Shown: positions 11,576 through 61,885 of the stretch, piece by piece
Numbering within the stretch: position 1 is the first letter of the stretch
How the letters are laid out: each line of letters opens with the position of its first letter
Source: Niveispirillum cyanobacteriorum
GTDB lineage: Bacteria > Pseudomonadota > Alphaproteobacteria > Azospirillales > Azospirillaceae
Assembly: GCF_002868735.1 (NCBI RefSeq)
Contig: NZ_CP025613.1
Coordinates: 930,001-994,000, forward strand
Reading direction: 5' to 3'
Length of the DNA: 64,000 nucleotides
The notes under the pieces: generated by a model
Seen by the model: only the letters and a program-made list of their open reading frames with translations
What the model was told of the DNA's origin: nothing
Database searches by the model: none
Translations under genes and position numbers: made by a program

Positions 11576-13588
11576 CTACCGTATCCGACTGCTAGGCTGT
11601 TGCGCCAAAGCGCGTGCCGCATGCTCTTTGCACTTGTTACAAGTTGGGCCCTTCTTCAATTTGCTGGGTGATATTGCATAGCACCCATCCTTAGGACAAT
11701 TCAACTTATCGCAGACCAAATCGATATTCACGTTGGCACCTAAGTAATTAGCGTTCGGCGACAAACGTAGTCCAAATTTAGCGGCCAATTTCTCAAAATT
11801 ATCTTGCCTATTTATCTTATCACATTCTTTACATTTATAGCTACCGGAATTCGCCTTCTGTAGCGCCTGATGAATTCCAACCTTCTTATTGTGTCCGTTT
11901 TTACAAATTATTTCATACAATTCAATCTTGCTGTCTTTTTGACTCGTACCCCTCCATTCCTGAGGGGGAACAGTCCATCCCTTATCTTGCATGACCTCTT
12001 TGAAATTGGTCCAAGTAGTACCATCGCCAGGACGACGCCTAATTATCTTTGGCTGTTCATCATTGCAGGCCTTGCAAAGTTTTTGCGTTTGCCCAGAACG
12101 AATTTTTCTGGAAATGTCTGCGCGCGTACGGTTTTCTACTTTATTATGCCGCAGACATTTTAATTCGACAAAATCCTCAACATTCACTGATTTTTCGGCA
12201 TTTACAATACGATACCCGGCTCGTTCGCAAGCATATACAAAACCTTCCCAAATTTGCCAGTCACCACAGGACATGCATGGCAGCAGGCATGCCTCGAGAC
12301 GTTGTGCCCACATATTATTGGGGTATCCGCACTTGTCGCACCGATAATTGTAAGGGCTATTAAAGCCGGTCCATATTTGGTCGCCAAGAAAGGTCAGACC
12401 GCGTTCCTTGGCGATACTAGTATGCGCCCTAAGAACTGAGTGAGCCTCAATAAACTCCGTAGCTGTCGGCAAATCACGGCTCGGCATTTCAAGGGGATAT
12501 TCAGCCGTCCCCAACTTCTGTTTACTCAATGCATCCCTTAAATCCAGCAGCAAAGCCTCTACATTATTCTCACTTCGCGATAGTACTTGTCGAATGTCTT
12601 CATCCGACCAACGAACCACTGCGTACCGCCACCCTTCAAGAACCCCCCCGCGTTCAATAGCTTTAATCTTCAAATTGTCTTGGCGTGCAGTTTCCTCGAC
12701 AGATCTATTCTTAAAAAAATGGCTGTCTTTATCAGCATCATGCACGCTTGAGTGGTTCTCAATGACTATTTTATACACTTCAGAGGCAACGTCATAACGA
12801 TTAGTAGCCTCCGGCCTTGCTGGATCAGCCCCCTGGATAGTATACTCCGCCACCCATTTGCCATCAGGCCAAAGAACCTTACATGTAGCTAGCAGTAACA
12901 TCTCTCCCGCCGGGCGCTGACACTCCCCGCAACCTCGCCCCCTTTGGACACTCCACGATTTCTTGAATTCGTGATCATTTGCGCATTTAAAATGTAGCTC
13001 AGAGTTAATATTATTGTACGCATTTATATTCAGAATTGTAAGCCCGCGAACGGCAGCGCGAGCCATAAGTTCTTCAGGAGGCAACTTATTACCTACGCAT
13101 ACTGGACACCCATTCCCCCCACTCTTGCGAAGTAAATTTTTGATAGTTATTGATCTCTCATGGCCACACTCCTTCCCACTCCTATAGTTAAGACAGACAA
13201 CAGTAATTTCATCCAGGAATTTAGCTGTGTTTTCTTTAATTTTATTTTTATTGATTTTATTTTTATTAATTACAAATCCGATTCCATCCCCCATGCATTC
13301 CTTGAATTTTAATTTCAACTCAGATAATCTGGCCAAAATTTCAGAAACTGACCATATATATTTTCTTTCTTTAGCCTCGTCATGACAATGCGGGCATATC
13401 TTCCAACTTTTTGCCTGAGCTTTCTGATGGCTGATTTTATTTTCTCTAATGTACCCACACTCCATATGCTTTACAATAATCATGTCCGAATTCTTTAATG
13501 CAATCGGTGAAAAATCTACCAATTCGTAACCATTTTCGTCAAACGCCATTGCTGATCTGCTGGGTCCTGTCTTTTTTGGTGGCGCCAT
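11576..13588 (-). CDS. Multi-zinc-finger protein with Vsr-like nuclease core (putative)
   Basis: A 670-residue protein with markedly lower GC than both neighbours. It contains at least six treble-clef/zinc-ribbon-like Cys clusters: around residues 44-68 (CGY...CPHC), 132-164 (CGH...CPVC), 202-223 (CANDH...CGEC), and at least three more after residue ~400 (CDKCG...CMSC, CLRHN...CKAC, CKNGH...CKEC, CDKLNC...CNKC). Between them residues ~225-340 resemble a PD-(D/E)XK/Vsr-type nuclease: RYDVASEVYKIVIENHSSVH (Asp266, Glu277, His279, His283) followed by ARQDNLK. Related phage and mobile-element proteins combine Zn ribbons with Vsr-like nucleases; function here (homing, defence or phage remnant) is unknown. 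The ATG has a GGAGA site. It stands alone. Confidence 0.6.
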   Translation of the reverse strand: MAPPKKTGPSRSAMAFDENGYELVDFSPIALKNSDMIIVKHMECGYIRENKISHQKAQAKSWKICPHCHDEAKERKYIWSVSEILARLSELKLKFKECMGDGIGFVINKNKINKNKIKENTAKFLDEITVVCLNYRSGKECGHERSITIKNLLRKSGGNGCPVCVGNKLPPEELMARAAVRGLTILNINAYNNINSELHFKCANDHEFKKSWSVQRGRGCGECQRPAGEMLLLATCKVLWPDGKWVAEYTIQGADPARPEATNRYDVASEVYKIVIENHSSVHDADKDSHFFKNRSVEETARQDNLKIKAIERGGVLEGWRYAVVRWSDEDIRQVLSRSENNVEALLLDLRDALSKQKLGTAEYPLEMPSRDLPTATEFIEAHSVLRAHTSIAKERGLTFLGDQIWTGFNSPYNYRCDKCGYPNNMWAQRLEACLLPCMSCGDWQIWEGFVYACERAGYRIVNAEKSVNVEDFVELKCLRHNKVENRTRADISRKIRSGQTQKLCKACNDEQPKIIRRRPGDGTTWTNFKEVMQDKGWTVPPQEWRGTSQKDSKIELYEIICKNGHNKKVGIHQALQKANSGSYKCKECDKINRQDNFEKLAAKFGLRLSPNANYLGANVNIDLVCDKLNCPKDGCYAISPSKLKKGPTCNKCKEHAARALAQQPSSRIR

Positions 13589-55676: not shown

Positions 55677-57833
55677 ATGACCACCCAGTTTCCGCCCAAG
55701 ACCCTCGCCGATTGGGAAGCGCTCGCCGCCAAGGACGCCGGTGCCGACGCCCAGCTCTCCGACCTGACCCGCACCACCGCCGAGGGTCTGGCGGTCAAGC
55801 CGCTCTACACCGCCGAAGACCTCGCCAACCTGGAGACCACCGGCACCCTGCCCGGCTTCGCGCCCTTCGTGCGCGGCCCCCGCGCCACCATGTATGCGGT
55901 GAAGCCCTGGACCATCCGCCAATACGCGGGTTTCTCCACGGCGGAGGCCAGCAACAAATTCTACCGCGCCAATCTGGCCGCCGGGCAAATGGGCCTGTCG
56001 GTGGCCTTCGATCTGGCCACCCATCGCGGCTATGACAGCGACCATCCCCGCGTCGTGGGCGATGTCGGCAAGGCCGGCGTCGCCATCGACAGCGTGGAGG
56101 ACATGAAAATCCTGTTCGACGGCATCCCGCTGGACAAGATGTCCGTCTCCATGACCATGAACGGCGCCGTTCTGCCCATCCTGGCCATGTATATCGTGGC
56201 CGGCGAGGAACAGGGCGTGCCGACGGAGAAGCTGTCCGGCACCATTCAGAATGACATTCTGAAGGAGTTCATGGTCCGCAACACCTATATCTACCCGCCC
56301 GAACCCAGCATGCGGATCATCGCCGATATCATCGAATACACGGCCAACCACATGCCCAAGTTCAACTCCATCTCCATCTCCGGCTACCATATGCAGGAGG
56401 CCGGGGCCACGGCGGTGCAGGAACTGGCCTTCACCCTGGCCGACGGTCTGGAATATGTCCGCGCCGCCCTGGCCAAGGGCCTGCACGTGGACAAGTTCGC
56501 CCCGCGCCTGTCCTTCTTCTTCGCCATCGGCATGGATTTCTTTATGGAGGTGGCAAAGCTGCGCGCCGCCCGCCTGCTGTGGGCCAAGCTGATGGACAAG
56601 CATTTCCAGCCCAAGGACGCCCGCTCCCTGGCGCTGCGCACCCATTGCCAGACCTCGGGCGTGTCACTGACGGAGCAGGACCCCTACAACAACGTCATCC
56701 GCACGACGATTGAGGCCATGGCCGCCATCATGGGCGGCACGCAAAGCCTGCACACCAATTCCTTTGACGAGGCCCTGGGCCTGCCCACGCCGTTCAGCGC
56801 CCGCATCGCCCGCAATACGCAGTTGATCATCGCGGAGGAAACCCGCATCCCCCATGTGGTGGACCCCCTGGGCGGCAGCTATTACGTCGAACACCTGACC
56901 GCCTCCCTGGCCGAGGCGGCGGAAAAGCTGATCGCCCAGGTCGAGGAGATGGGCGGCATGACCAAGGCCGTGGAAAGCGGCCTGCCCAAGCTGATGATCG
57001 AGGAAGCCGCCGCCCGGCGTCAGGCTCGCATCGACCGGGGCGAGGAGGTGATCGTCGGCGTCAACAAATACCGCCCCCAGAACCCCGAAACCGTGGACGT
57101 CCTGGATATCGACAATACGGCGGTACGCGAGGCGCAGGTCGCCCGCCTGAAGACCATCCGCGCCACCCGTGACGAGGCCAAGGTCAAGGAAACCCTGGCC
57201 GCCCTGACACAGGCGGCGGCCGAGAAATCCGGCAACCTGCTGGCCCTTGCCGTCAACGCCGCCCGCGCCCGCGCCACCGTTGGGGAGATTTCCGACGCCA
57301 TGGAAGAAATCTTCACAAGGCATCGCGCCACCATCCGCTCCGTCTCCGGCGTCTATGGTGCCGCTTACGAGGGCGATGCCGGCTTCGCGCAAATCCAGAA
57401 GGACGTGGCCAGCTTTGCCGAGGCCGAGGGCCGCCGACCCCGCATGCTGGTGGTAAAGATGGGCCAGGACGGCCATGACCGCGGTGCCAAGGTCATCGCC
57501 ACCGCCTTCGCCGATATCGGCTTCGACGTCGATGTCGGCGCCCTGTTCCAAACCCCGGAAGAAGCCGCCCGCCAGGCCATCGAAAACGACGTCCACGTCG
57601 TCGGCGTCTCCAGCCTCGCCGCCGGCCACAAAACCCTGGTCCCGCAACTGGCCGCCGCCCTGAAGGAACAGGGTGCGGGCGACATCCTCATCGTCTGCGG
57701 CGGCGTCATCCCCCCCCAGGATTACGAGTTCCTGCTGAACGCCGGCGCGTCGGCCATCTACGGGCCGGGGACGAACATCCCCAAGGCGGCGGCGGAGATT
57801 ATGGAGATGATCCGGGGCAAGCGGGGGGCGTGA
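55677..57833 (+). CDS. scpA: Methylmalonyl-CoA mutase (single-chain)
   Basis: 718 residues in one chain: N-terminal TIM barrel with [38 protein letters not shown] and [17 protein letters not shown], then the C-terminal cobalamin-binding domain with the [20 protein letters not shown] motif (DxHxxG, His is the lower B12 ligand). It converts (R)-methylmalonyl-CoA to succinyl-CoA, completing propionyl-CoA entry to the TCA cycle. It follows pccA by 86 bp. The MeaB chaperone and epimerase are not in the window. Confidence 0.96.
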
Positions 57834-57846
57834 GTGCCTCCCGTAG

Positions 57847-57874
57847 CGCGGATTAGGCAACGCCGTAATCCGCG
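57847..57874. repeat. REP-like hairpin 1 after the mutase gene
   Basis: CGCGGATTA (57847-57855) and TAATCCGCG (57866-57874), perfect 9-bp stem, 10-base loop. Common type of extragenic palindrome in alphaproteobacteria; may also end transcription. Confidence 0.6.
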
Positions 57875-57888
57875 AAACCCCACCGTCA

Positions 57889-57906
57889 TCCCGGCGAACG
57901 CCGGGA
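57889..57906. repeat. REP-like hairpin 2 (CATCCCGGCG...CGCCGGGACCC)
   Basis: TCCCGGCG and CGCCGGGA flank AA. The wider CGTCATCCCGGCGAACGC then CGGGACCCAGG is a familiar dispersed palindrome of alphaproteobacterial genomes. It directly borders the AT-rich cassette region. Confidence 0.6.
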
Positions 57907-58013
57907 CCCAGGGGCCACACGCCCGACCTATCGGCAACCCTTCATCACTTAGGCCTAACTAGCGCATTTCCCGGATTTCGCGTAAATTACGCGAACATCG
58001 GAAGGCCAAGCCC

Positions 58014-58250
58014 ATGAAAACCACGATCCCGGCGTCCGAATTCACCCGTAATTTCGGCCATTACCGCATGGTGGCACAGCGGGAGACTGTGGCCGTCTCC
58101 AGCCATGGCCGCATCACCGGCTACTTCATCGCCCCCGACGAATATGAGCGAGGTTCTTTGCATGTTAGTCTTGCGCCCACACTGGGCAGGCCGCAGTCTT
58201 ATGCTACAGGCATTGATACGCGACCGAGAACGTGGCATACCTACTTTTAA
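58014..58250 (+). pseudogene. Phd/YefM-like antitoxin, C-terminus replaced at an island junction
   Basis: The first ~45 residues (MKTTIPASEFTRNFGHYRMV then SSHGRITGYFIAPDEYE) are a normal Phd/YefM-type antitoxin N-terminus with DNA-binding character. After position ~58147 the reading continues into Arg/Ser/Pro-rich residues (RGSLHVSLAPTLGRP) unlike any antitoxin tail, exactly where base composition changes from GC-rich to AT-rich. I read this as an antitoxin gene cut by insertion of the cassette that follows; no toxin gene remains. The truncated protein might still bind DNA. Confidence 0.6.
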
Positions 58251-58275
58251 TACGGTTTCTAAGGGATAAGCAACT

Positions 58276-59139
58276 GTGCGTGAACTTAAGCTGGCCGTGG
58301 GTGGACTTAATATACGCCTACACCCGCATTCGCCCGAGATTTATGATTTGTATATCCAGGCATTATATAATGCTCGCACACCCGTCCGTATTCGGGGCGA
58401 TCGATTTGCCATGATAACCCGGATCGACCGTCGAGAAGTACATAACAATCTGATTAAAGGTACAATTAGAACTTTCACCAAAATCGATCCAAACGGACAG
58501 TGGTTTGATGAAGAAAGTTTGGATGATGCAAAACCTGATCTTTTAAAGCAAATAAAAATACCCCCTACTGTACATCCAAATTCCGCATCATTTCGATTCT
58601 CAATGAATACGAAGAACCATATGCTTGTTTTTGAGAATTATGTAGATGGACGACAACTAACACCAAATAGCGCTGAGATTATCTTTAGAAGACTGTCCGA
58701 ATTGACGGCTATAGTTAGAAAATTTGGACACGCGAAAATCACCATAAAGCAAGATCAATCGTCATTAGAGAGGATTTTTGATTTACAGAGAATAAAATCG
58801 GTTAAATTCGTTCTCGAGAAGCCCAACCCAGATATTTGGAGCGACGACCTCGAACAGCAGGTTGAGGCGCACTTAGATGCTGCGAATGCAAGCCGTATAG
58901 AAATTGTTTATAAGGCTTCTAGTGGGGAGTCCATTGAGAAGACGGATAGCATGGACCAACTTGGAAGGGCAGCCCTAGTTAACGGTGCAGTAGAAGCCCT
59001 TGGCTACAACGAAAACGGTCATGTTAAAATCTCCACATTAGATTATCCAAAAATAGAGCAAACAAAATATGATCCCGAAACGCAAAGCGAAGAGATTGTA
59101 TACGATAATCTCCGCCGCCGGATGGAAAGCCGTTTATGA
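58276..59139 (+). CDS. DUF4747-like protein (putative defence-type cassette, gene 1)
   Basis: 287 residues, GTG start with AAGGG ten bases upstream, strongly AT-rich compared with flanks. The N-terminus LKLAVGGLNIRLHPHSPEIY and IRGDRFAMITRIDRRE, the middle FTKIDPNGQWFDEESL and RFSMNTKNHMLVFENYVDGR match my recollection of the DUF4747 family (about 270-290 residues, unknown function). C-terminal half is helical with Glu/Asp/Lys-rich segments (SSLERIFDLQRIKSVKFVLE). No TM or obvious catalytic motif. The stop overlaps the start of a membrane-protein gene (ATGA). Role unknown; accessory islands with DUF4747 plus a membrane protein suggest a two-component system such as defence. Confidence 0.6.
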   Translation: MRELKLAVGGLNIRLHPHSPEIYDLYIQALYNARTPVRIRGDRFAMITRIDRREVHNNLIKGTIRTFTKIDPNGQWFDEESLDDAKPDLLKQIKIPPTVHPNSASFRFSMNTKNHMLVFENYVDGRQLTPNSAEIIFRRLSELTAIVRKFGHAKITIKQDQSSLERIFDLQRIKSVKFVLEKPNPDIWSDDLEQQVEAHLDAANASRIEIVYKASSGESIEKTDSMDQLGRAALVNGAVEALGYNENGHVKISTLDYPKIEQTKYDPETQSEEIVYDNLRRRMESRL

Positions 59140-59741
59140 TATCATTCCCAAAGGAGTATGTGGGCTTATCCAGTCAGATCCGAAAATACTGGTCTGATTA
59201 CGGCGGCGTACTTGTATTAGTTCGATCGCCATTCGCTCACATATCTCTCATTATTGCCATGTCCTCATATAGAGTGTGGATGGATCAAAAGTGGGTTGAT
59301 ATTCCCTTATCTTTGTTGCCAAACTTGCTTGGCTTTAGTCTTGGTGCATATGCTCTAATATTCAGCCTAACAAACGAGCGGCTTTTGGCTGCACTGCATA
59401 CTCCTACAAGCGATGGAAGCCCAACACATTTGGGAGCAATTAATGCTACGTTCTTTCACTTTATATTAATGCAGACGATAGCCATAATTTATGCGTTGGC
59501 TAATAAATCTACTTTGATAATTGATGCTGTAATTCTATTGCCGTTTTCGTGTGAATTTAAGAAAACGACAACCAACGTTCTCAGCTCAGCAGCGGGTTTA
59601 TTCGGTTATTTTTTAACAGTGTACGCTATTGTTCTGTTAATCGGGGCTGCCATCGCAGTCTATCGAATGACGACTCTAAGCGCTTCAGCGGCAAGGAAAG
59701 CCCAAGGCCAAGCAAAAAGCCTGTCGCCTAATAGAGATTAA
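59136..59741 (+). CDS. Four-helix membrane protein coupled to the DUF4747-like gene
   Basis: 201 residues. Predicted helices: FAHISLIIAMSSYRVWM (weak), LPNLLGFSLGAYALIFSL, FFHFILMQTIAIIYAL, and a C-terminal hairpin AGLFGYFLTVYAIVLLIGAA. N- and C-termini are basic (KEYVGLSSQIRKYW; ARKAQGQAKSLSPNRD). No family recognised. ATG overlaps the upstream stop. Shares the AT-rich composition of gene 1, so both moved together. Membrane proteins paired with a soluble unknown are typical of abortive-infection systems, where the membrane part is the effector; this is inference. Confidence 0.6.
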   Translation: MISFPKEYVGLSSQIRKYWSDYGGVLVLVRSPFAHISLIIAMSSYRVWMDQKWVDIPLSLLPNLLGFSLGAYALIFSLTNERLLAALHTPTSDGSPTHLGAINATFFHFILMQTIAIIYALANKSTLIIDAVILLPFSCEFKKTTTNVLSSAAGLFGYFLTVYAIVLLIGAAIAVYRMTTLSASAARKAQGQAKSLSPNRD

Positions 59742-59780
59742 TTAAGAGATAAAGCGCCGCCCGCGTGCGGTAAACCGGGA

Positions 59781-60050
59781 TCACTCCGCCCCTACCCGCC
59801 GCGCCTGCGCCCGCACCAACACTTCCTCCACATCAAACAGTGCCCGCCCGCCGCTTTCCTTGCCCTCGTTCCAGGCTTGGCGCAGGCGGGCCAGTTCGTC
59901 CTGACGCTGGGCGCGTTTAAGCTGCCAGTCACGCACGGCCTCGCGCACGATCTCGCTGGTGGTGGCGTAATCGCCGGTCGCGACCGCGTCGCGCATGGCG
60001 GAAAGCTGGTCGCCCGTTACGGCAACGCTGATCTTCTGGATGTCCGGCAT
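59781..60050 (-). CDS. Orphan ParD-type antitoxin
   Basis: About 89 residues from the ATG at 60050 (an ATG five codons upstream is possible; neither has a clear ribosome site). Ribbon-helix-helix pattern ISVAVTGDQLSAMRDAVATG and YATTSEIVREAVRDWQLKRA, with an acidic tail, as in ParD. No ParE gene follows: downstream (lower coordinates) the AT-rich cassette ends 40 bp away, so the toxin may have been lost when the cassette arrived. Different from the intact parDE at 7.6-8.1 kb. Confidence 0.75.
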   Translation of the reverse strand: MPDIQKISVAVTGDQLSAMRDAVATGDYATTSEIVREAVRDWQLKRAQRQDELARLRQAWNEGKESGGRALFDVEEVLVRAQARRVGAE

Positions 60051-60117
60051 GGGGCCAGGGTCCATTGGTGGCAAAAGGTAGCAAAGAGTAAGCCCAAGGC
60101 ACCCGCCCCCTCCACCC

Positions 60118-60732
60118 CTACCCCACCACCCTGATCCCAACCGCCCCGCGCCGCAGGCGCAGCACGAAGCGCACAGTCAGGACCAGCACCACCACCGTCA
60201 GCCCGCCCAACGCCAGCAGCATCCAGGGCACCATATCCGCGCGGCCCTCGTCCTGCGCGCACATCACAATCAAACCGGCCAGCGGGATCGGCGCGCCCCA
60301 GAGGCGCAGGACTTCCAGGGCGATCAGCCCGCCCGGTTGCGGCACGATCAGGCGCAGGGGCCGGTCCATGGGCACATGTTTGCTGGCCATGGCCAGCAGC
60401 GGGAAATAGCCGATATTGAGGATCAGCCAGACGCCGATCATCACCGCCACGCCCGCCACCGGCCCGACCAGCAGCCAGAGCGGGACCAGGGCCGCCAGCA
60501 GCAGAACCGACAGCGCCACCAGGGCCAGGGCGGCACTTGGCAACCGCGAGACCCAGGCCGGATGCACCTTTGCCACGCGCAGCCACGCATCCTCGGGCAT
60601 ACGGATCGGGCCGGGTCGCACCGCCTCCCCGGTCAGCATCACATTGTGCGAGTGATAGATGTTCCCCCGATCATCACGGTACAGCGGCACGCGATCCCTC
60701 CCGGTTCCCTGCTCGTCCCCATCCGCCGCCAC
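60118..60732 (-). CDS. Small membrane protein of unknown function
   Basis: 204 residues from a GTG start at 60732. An N-terminal soluble part (residues ~1-55) is followed by four helices: ALALVALSVLLLAALVPLWL, VAGVAVMIGVWLILNIGYF, a helix around ALEVLRLWGAPIPLAGLIVM, and LLALGGLTVVVLVLTVRFVL. No family recognised. It separates the orphan antitoxin from the HTH gene with divergent orientation to the latter. Confidence 0.6.
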   Translation of the reverse strand: MAADGDEQGTGRDRVPLYRDDRGNIYHSHNVMLTGEAVRPGPIRMPEDAWLRVAKVHPAWVSRLPSAALALVALSVLLLAALVPLWLLVGPVAGVAVMIGVWLILNIGYFPLLAMASKHVPMDRPLRLIVPQPGGLIALEVLRLWGAPIPLAGLIVMCAQDEGRADMVPWMLLALGGLTVVVLVLTVRFVLRLRRGAVGIRVVG

Positions 60733-60841
60733 CCTACCCCATCTCCCCCACCCCGCGAACCCCCATCAACTGTTGCACCCTTGCTGGCCCCAATGATAGG
60801 AATATATTCTGTGCTTTTTCTATTAACCGCCGGAGGCCCCC

Positions 60842-61885
60842 ATGCCGAACCCCGCCTATCCCGAACCGCTCCCCACCTCCCCCGCCTTGGACCCGGCCTT
60901 TGATGAACTGACCAGCGCTGAACAGCGGGAGGCATGGTGGCGCGGGTCGGATGATGTGCAGGCGGTGGAGGCCGGGGATGATGTGGAATGGGCGACGGAG
61001 GAACATTTTCCCTCCGGCCTGCACCGCTCCCGCTTGAAGGACGAGGATTGGGCGCGCGTGGCCTATTTCATTGCCAAGGGCGTGTCGGTGACGGAGGTGG
61101 CGAAACATTTCGGCGTGTCGCGCACCACCATCTGGCGCGGGATGCAGCGTTCGTCGGGCCTGCGCCGCCGCATCTTGTCGGAACGGCGGATGTTGCAGCG
61201 GGAAAGCGACAATCGTTTTGTGGCCCTGCGCGAGGCCGTGGTCACTGGCCTGATGGAGGCGATCAGCAATGGCAATGTCCGCGTCCTGCTCTGGGCGGCC
61301 AAGCGGCTGGACCTGGGCGGTTCCATCCTGCCCGCCGCACCGCCCGCCCCACGGCCCAGCACCGGGGACGCAGCTCCGCCCATGCCCCGTATCCGCCGCG
61401 CCCCGCCGGCGGTGCGCGCCATCATGACCCGTGCGGCCGACCAGGCCGACGCCGCCCCCCTCCCGGCGAACGCTCCGCCGCCAGCGCCACCCCCTACCAA
61501 TCCCGTCTCCGCACCGGTGAGCGCCGCCCGTCAGGCCAAAGCGCCAGCCGTCAAACCGGTACCCAAGCCGCCCCGTCCGGCCCCGGCCCCCATGCCCGCA
61601 CCGACGCCCGTACCCAAGACGGCAACCGCGACCGCCCGGCCCACCGGACCGAACCAGGGAGCGGCCAAGGCACCGGCCTGCCTTAAGCGCCGCGTCTGGC
61701 CACCCGTGCGCCATCTGGCAACGCGGCAGCGCCCGCCCTGCCCGCCGCTGGCCGATCATATGGACATGCATGTCACCGACACGCTGTTGCAGAACTGCCG
61801 GTATCAGGGGCTGGGCCGTCCCGTCTGCGACAATGACGGGCCGCTGGACCCCTACCGCCCCTTACGCAGCTATGACTGGCCCTGA
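60842..61885 (+). CDS. Helix-turn-helix protein with long Pro/Ala-rich tail
   Basis: 347 residues; ATG with GGAGG 5 bp upstream. Residues ~65-110 contain a resolvase/Mor-like HTH: AKGVSVTEVAKHFGVSRTTI then WRGMQRSSGLRRRILSERRM; residues ~110-150 are helical (SDNRFVALREAVVTGLMEAI, LLWAAKRLDLGG). From ~165 to ~290 the chain is low-complexity Pro/Ala (APAPMPAPTPVPKTATATAR) and ends with a short structured tail with two Cys (CLKRR; CRYQGLGRPVCDNDG). Possibly a small-terminase-like or regulatory protein; no phage genes are near. Function unknown. Confidence 0.6.
   Translation: MPNPAYPEPLPTSPALDPAFDELTSAEQREAWWRGSDDVQAVEAGDDVEWATEEHFPSGLHRSRLKDEDWARVAYFIAKGVSVTEVAKHFGVSRTTIWRGMQRSSGLRRRILSERRMLQRESDNRFVALREAVVTGLMEAISNGNVRVLLWAAKRLDLGGSILPAAPPAPRPSTGDAAPPMPRIRRAPPAVRAIMTRAADQADAAPLPANAPPPAPPPTNPVSAPVSAARQAKAPAVKPVPKPPRPAPAPMPAPTPVPKTATATARPTGPNQGAAKAPACLKRRVWPPVRHLATRQRPPCPPLADHMDMHVTDTLLQNCRYQGLGRPVCDNDGPLDPYRPLRSYDWP

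Follow-up and report, generated by a model that had tools for sequence, protein, structure and literature searches.

Two overlapping genes in a 64-kb window of Niveispirillum cyanobacteriorum contig NZ_CP025613.1 (930,001 to 994,000; all positions below are those of this window) likely constitute an abortive-infection (superinfection exclusion) unit that is RexAB-like and of the DUF4747 type. Gene 1 (58276..59139, + strand) encodes a DUF4747 protein that is probably a DNA-binding alarm protein. It probably switches on the membrane protein of gene 2 (59136..59741, + strand) to stop the growth of the virus-infected cell. This reading is based on the fold, the gene order, and the context of the pair. 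An earlier note, made from the letters of this DNA, had proposed a two-gene defence unit, and our results partly support that interpretation. New here are evidence from the predicted structure of a true DUF4747 protein, its strict pairing with a membrane protein of a distinct family, and the occurrence of the pair at chromosomal sites without a coupled repressor.

Gene 1 has a GTG start and encodes 287 amino acids (aa). Against the DUF4747 model (PF15931), the protein scored 145.7 bits (curated cut-off 27; E 2.2e-42) over the complete model (1-257 of 257). Given this score and coverage, it is a full family member, which goes beyond the likeness to DUF4747 noted earlier. Its predicted fold may be the two-domain fold of RexA and RdgC: when the predicted model was compared with VIA-align, lambda RexA was the best row, and in Foldseek RdgC was the best match, with low TM-scores. 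No match to the RexA family (PF15969) was obtained at E 1 or less (lambda RexA itself: 1e-97), and the sequence routes to RexA and to solved structures gave no relative. Weak matches to SecB (E 0.08-0.31) were discarded as chance. An HPH motif was invariant in all 22 rows of one alignment (A4), whose loci had been retrieved with patterns containing the motif itself. In a nine-row alignment obtained by other retrieval routes and including the window (A1), the first H was kept in five rows and the second in seven. Since the invariance came from pattern-selected loci and was partial in A1, we concluded nothing from this motif. Residues N12, H115, N184, G237, and P258 were kept in 9/9 rows of A1. 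The DUF4747-type PHROG, phrog_10040, also matched in the Haloferax volcanii control genome, indicating that the sensor family may reach archaea.

Gene 2 starts with ATG and encodes a predicted inner-membrane effector of 201 aa. A simple Kyte-Doolittle scan (mean threshold 1.2) placed four hydrophobic segments at residues 24-42, 58-76, 104-122, and 155-173, the topology being a prediction. The protein is basic (15 K+R vs 9 D+E), in agreement with the earlier description of a basic multi-helix membrane protein. It matched phrog_20580, a phage family without a name (E 4.5e-25; profile 2-151 of 157). No Pfam family matched at E 1 or less, the RexB family PF15968 included (lambda RexB: 8.5e-92), and sequence searches found neither a solved-structure relative nor a route to RexB. 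Judged by sequence, the pair is not a member of the RexA or RexB families. In the 21 rows of alignment A5, residues Y18, Y22, G23, S31, W53, P62, G66, F67, L69, H108, Q113, and Y163 were invariant; in alignment A2, whose nine rows are more diverse, only S31, P62, F67, F106, and Y163 were. Polar residues, prolines, and glycines that are conserved within or beside the hydrophobic segments would fit a channel or pore.

The constancy of the pairing was assessed among homologues. A phylum scan returned DUF4747 homologues in 7/398 (six besides the window's own), a plasmid search gave two elsewhere, and alignment scans gave nine and fourteen. A same-strand membrane protein was encoded directly downstream of the gene 1 homologue in all 31 loci (8/8 and 23/23, one of the 23 being cut by a contig end). 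The spacing ranged from an 86 bp overlap, measured between first-start open reading frames (ORFs), to a 38 bp gap. Four near-duplicate locus pairs were recognised by eye (L003/L086, L011/L072, L076/L077, L083/L084; these and similar labels are our own), which reduces the 31 loci to 27. The gene 1 and gene 2 distances were correlated (r 0.88 over 21 loci), a value reached in 0/2000 permutations. The pair is a unit. Solitary homologues without a recurrent membrane partner, which the earlier note had named as evidence against its proposal, were not seen, as the partner was present in 31/31 loci.

The closest named relative was L074 in Sphingomonas sp. AOB5 (62% identity). DUF4747 was present in the own genome alone among 59 genomes searched (own counted). 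A class-level scan with phrog_10040 found the own genome only (1/385), and a class scan around G406 found G406 only (1/369). No relative came from single-protein scans of public contigs or from tblastn of phage records. For Salmonella, PMC11181664 lists an 894-bp DUF4747 gene and, as the next locus tag in the table, a 606-bp hypothetical gene; these sizes are close to those of gene 1 and gene 2.

Neighbour tests around the homologues covered chosen genes rather than whole neighbourhoods, and PADLOC was run at a minority of the loci. Phage genes accompanied several pairs, namely a Mu transposase (L063), a terminase (L076), a tape measure gene (L085), and Zot (L082). In L061, a CI repressor lay directly upstream of the pair, as in lambda. 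L060 and L061 appeared Mu-like by eye, and the transposase-like gene of L060 gave an rve match below threshold only. Defence neighbours were GmrSD/HEC-06, HEC-03, HmaB-like methylase, and PLD helicase genes in L065, PD-Lambda-4_A about 160-315 bp ahead of the pair in L074, and RmrA and RmrT some 2.5 kb off in L071 (Nitrosovibrio tenuis). The neighbour genes tested with PADLOC in L066, L067, L073, and L012 gave no match. The earlier picture of a horizontally acquired sensor and membrane pair is supported, with a recurrent partner and several copies in prophages or beside defence genes; L065, L074, and L071 are examples of the proximity to defence genes. In L071 (5831-7644), the DUF4747 gene is preceded, at a distance of about 45 bp, by an rdgC gene (Pfam RdgC E 3.3e-95). 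The pair of L062 adjoins a UvrA-like gene (named by eye). For the window copy, L062, L067, and L074, no repressor or prophage was recognised nearby by eye, no dedicated search having been made. On two small Acinetobacter plasmids (L011, L012), the pair adjoins toxin-antitoxin genes (RelE/ParE-NadS; BrnT/BrnA). The window pair likewise sits between two antitoxin genes.

The composition of the surrounding DNA was examined next to the gene content. The GC content was 0.428 at 58147-59745, against a mean of 0.623 over the window. Lower values occurred in 8/62,402 windows of the same length, the minimum starting at 58154; presumably these are shifted copies of the same place. A two-boundary likelihood fit inside 57000-61000 gave 58195-59754 as the best solution (log-likelihood gain 114), defining an AT-rich acquired segment of 1.56 kb (58195..59754, no strand assigned) with a GC content of 0.42 against 0.66 outside. 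The sharply lower GC and the AT-rich stretch described earlier were therefore recovered, but the left edge set at 58147 was not, the compositional border lying closer to 58195. Both genes lie inside the segment and, as had been noted, are joined by an ATGA overlap (58276-59139 and 59136-59741). Promoter and terminator scans gave one site each, under the shuffled mean, and Rfam had no match.

On the left, the neighbouring gene ending at 57833 is, we assume, methylmalonyl-CoA mutase-like. It is followed by the 5' part of a Phd-type antitoxin gene (58014..58147, + strand; ~46 codons), whose frame continues through foreign sequence to 58250. The Pfam Phd/YefM match of this fragment was weak (E 0.0066, under the family cut-off), and its departure after ~46 codons into unrelated sequence was judged by eye; the disrupted antitoxin gene that the earlier note saw at the start of the stretch is consistent with this. 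A Phd homologue with a longer C-terminus (93 aa) exists in another genome (L015), and matches to the fragment were found in 11/35 genomes searched, own counted. The right border of the segment is marked by a gene at 59781..60050 (- strand), which we take to belong to the ParD-like antitoxin family and which had matches in 13/35 genomes searched, own counted. Behind it, no full toxin gene was recognised; a possible leftover of a ParE gene start (frame 2 of the right border, about ten codons) was too short to claim. No direct repeats of at least 14 bases were present within 57800-60100, and thus no insertion mechanism was seen.

A second AT-rich stretch lies at about 11.6-14.0 kb, where 1.6-kb windows reach a GC content of 0.439. 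When the 64 kb were sampled every 400 bases, 1.6-kb windows below 0.50 GC outside the pair started only at 11.6-12.4 kb. Low GC by itself is therefore not unique to the pair. This second stretch contains a gene (11576-13588, - strand) for a 670-aa Cys-rich protein, zinc-ribbon-looking by eye, with no PADLOC match and no Pfam match at E 0.001; it is possibly another acquired gene.

The insertion site was followed across the genus. The mutase C-terminus was present in 11/11 genus genomes searched. A parD homologue lay near the mutase on the same contig in G008, G009, G002, and G001, and G010 shares sequence beyond parD. The cargo between mutase and parD varies among these congeners (L050-L053, L056). 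We submitted seven proteins from six congener regions to PADLOC and obtained matches in three: AbiU in G008 (E 1.5e-64), an anti-phage dCTP deaminase in G009 (E 7.1e-161), and a HEC-07-like protein together with the Fic protein of PDC-S04 in G001. PADLOC matched none of the proteins submitted from G002 and G010, nor a transporter from G006. As the parD flank of G006 was not seen beside the mutase gene, this transporter may be at a different site. Ten regions were fetched, with L054 (contig end) and L059 outside the cargo scan and L057 and L058 listed without a PADLOC run. The cargo of G008 is likewise bordered by a decayed copy of the Phd-type antitoxin start seen in the window. Given that the cargo varies and is anti-phage in three congeners, the window pair sits where the genus keeps exchangeable genes, and the mutase-parD interval is a candidate genus-level defence spot. 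Beyond the Fic gene of G001 there is a second partial mutase C-terminus (L053, 1687-1977; query 132-200, 86% identity), which may reflect a duplication of the target end upon arrival of the Fic insert.

We propose the following mechanism. The unit would travel between replicons as cargo and would here have been inserted at a variable chromosomal spot. The gene 1 protein would be cytoplasmic, probably dimeric, and of the RexA/RdgC fold, and it would recognise phage DNA, a DNA-protein intermediate, or a phage protein. Upon activation, it would contact the gene 2 protein with its four membrane segments. This second protein would open or damage the inner membrane and make it leak. Cell growth would then halt before phage is made, and the phage would be excluded. 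In the parts of the published work accessible to us, we met no PF15931 pair of this branch that had been tested with phage; hence, the defence function is one that we infer. The earlier label "uncharacterised" holds in this respect but not otherwise, since papers of 2019-2020 link DUF4747 to lambda RexAB and to actinophage systems, and one of 2026 links it to immunity.

The low Foldseek TM-scores of the gene 1 model weigh against the RexAB-like reading, as they weaken the RexA/RdgC fold assignment. Its main rival reverses the control: gene 1 itself would act against the virus and, before infection, would be held at the membrane in an inactive state by its partner. Butters gp30/gp31, a DUF4747-like protein with a four-pass membrane protein, has been proposed to act in this manner (PMC7542560, PMC12894663), and the pairing and co-divergence of the two genes are compatible with control in either direction. 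However, RexABpp, CarolAnn, Sbash, and lambda all use the membrane protein as the effector (PMC12894663). Moreover, segments 3 and 4 of gene 2 keep the polar residues H108, Q113, and Y163 in 21 rows, beyond the need of an anchor, although only Y163 of these is invariant in the nine-row A2. We regard the Butters-type arrangement as unlikely.

The neighbourhood bears on two further explanations. Both in the window and on the two Acinetobacter plasmids, the pair adjoins toxin-antitoxin genes, and it also occurs in prophages, as would be expected if gene 2 coded for a membrane toxin that gene 1 neutralises, serving the persistence of a mobile element rather than defence. Nevertheless, the adjoining genes are separate systems or remnants, the best fold matches of the gene 1 model are RexA and RdgC, and the site holds anti-phage genes in three congeners, which makes such selfish stabilisation quite improbable. 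Alternatively, gene 1 could be an RdgC-like modulator of recombination or replication, with a membrane anchor, that serves a prophage's own life cycle and is merely carried along here. The Foldseek match of the model to RdgC, the rdgC gene directly upstream in Nitrosovibrio L071, and the modulation or biasing of the lysis-lysogeny switch by lambda RexA (PMC11077077) would agree with this. Yet both genes are open in the window, L062, L067, and L074, the four copies lacking a prophage or repressor recognised by eye, which points to a use outside prophages; we consider this modulator role very improbable.

A wider and more tentative reading can also be considered. True DUF4747 pairs could form a separate, widespread branch of RexAB-like immunity that works also outside prophages. 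Its sensor, of the RdgC fold, would respond to intermediates of replication or recombination and would be wired to a different four-segment membrane effector. In that case, the RexA/RdgC/CENP-N-Chl4 fold would be an alarm module of general use, signalling foreign or damaged DNA to membrane effectors of unrelated kinds. No model of PADLOC-DB 2.0.0 matches gene 1 or gene 2, and surveys using that release would therefore miss the pair. Abortive infection has few examples known for as long as Rex exclusion, yet only five RexAB-like systems have been described (PMC12894663). New material for the search for the trigger comes from a chromosomal relative of this kind, which has no coupled repressor but does have a predicted fold, a partner that is always present, and many homologues.

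The link between DUF4747, RexA, and a membrane partner has been in print since 2019, in papers of 2019-2020 that relied on weak HHpred matches; that of Butters gp30 had a probability of 69 and an E of 140 (PMC7542560). A 2026 paper lists a DUF4747 operon, the "DUF4747/CarolAnn prophage system", as immune (PMC13373217) and places it downstream of capK/capS in 17/443 capK loci. That operon is regulated by capK/capS, whereas neither gene was recognised in the ORFs that flank the pair in the window, no dedicated search having been made. We found no phage test of the capK/capS-linked operon in the accessible part of PMC13373217. CarolAnn gp44/gp43 and Sbash gp30/gp31 share with the window pair the gene order and the combination of a cytoplasmic and a four-pass membrane protein. 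Their sensors are described as weak DUF4747 matches in the available text but are longer (370-372 aa), and CarolAnn gp44, Sbash gp30, and the Sejanus relative had no Pfam match even at E 10. The Sbash proteins belong to other PHROG families than the window pair, and in profile comparison neither window component matched its CarolAnn or Sbash counterpart.

Among systems that have been tested, RexABpp and the actinophage systems CarolAnn and Sbash are the closest parallels. RexABpp of Pseudomonas putida prophage P1 (PP_5643/PP_5644), compared by description only, differs in being a prophage system whose genes follow a CI-like repressor. There, the over-expressed RexA-like protein is reported to activate the membrane protein, with membrane defects in part of the cells (PMC12894663). 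Lambda RexA/RexB (PF15969/PF15968; structure 8TWQ) resembles the window pair in having adjacent genes for a cytoplasmic protein of ~280 aa and a small membrane protein. Neither window protein is similar to them in sequence, and the window pair lacks the coupled cI repressor, 57833-58276 showing the Phd fragment only. Lambda RexA and three actinophage proteins are reported to be dimers that bind DNA without sequence preference. What the window pair shares with the RexAB-like systems is a predicted four-segment membrane protein encoded directly downstream, here with an ATGA overlap and recurring in 31/31 loci.
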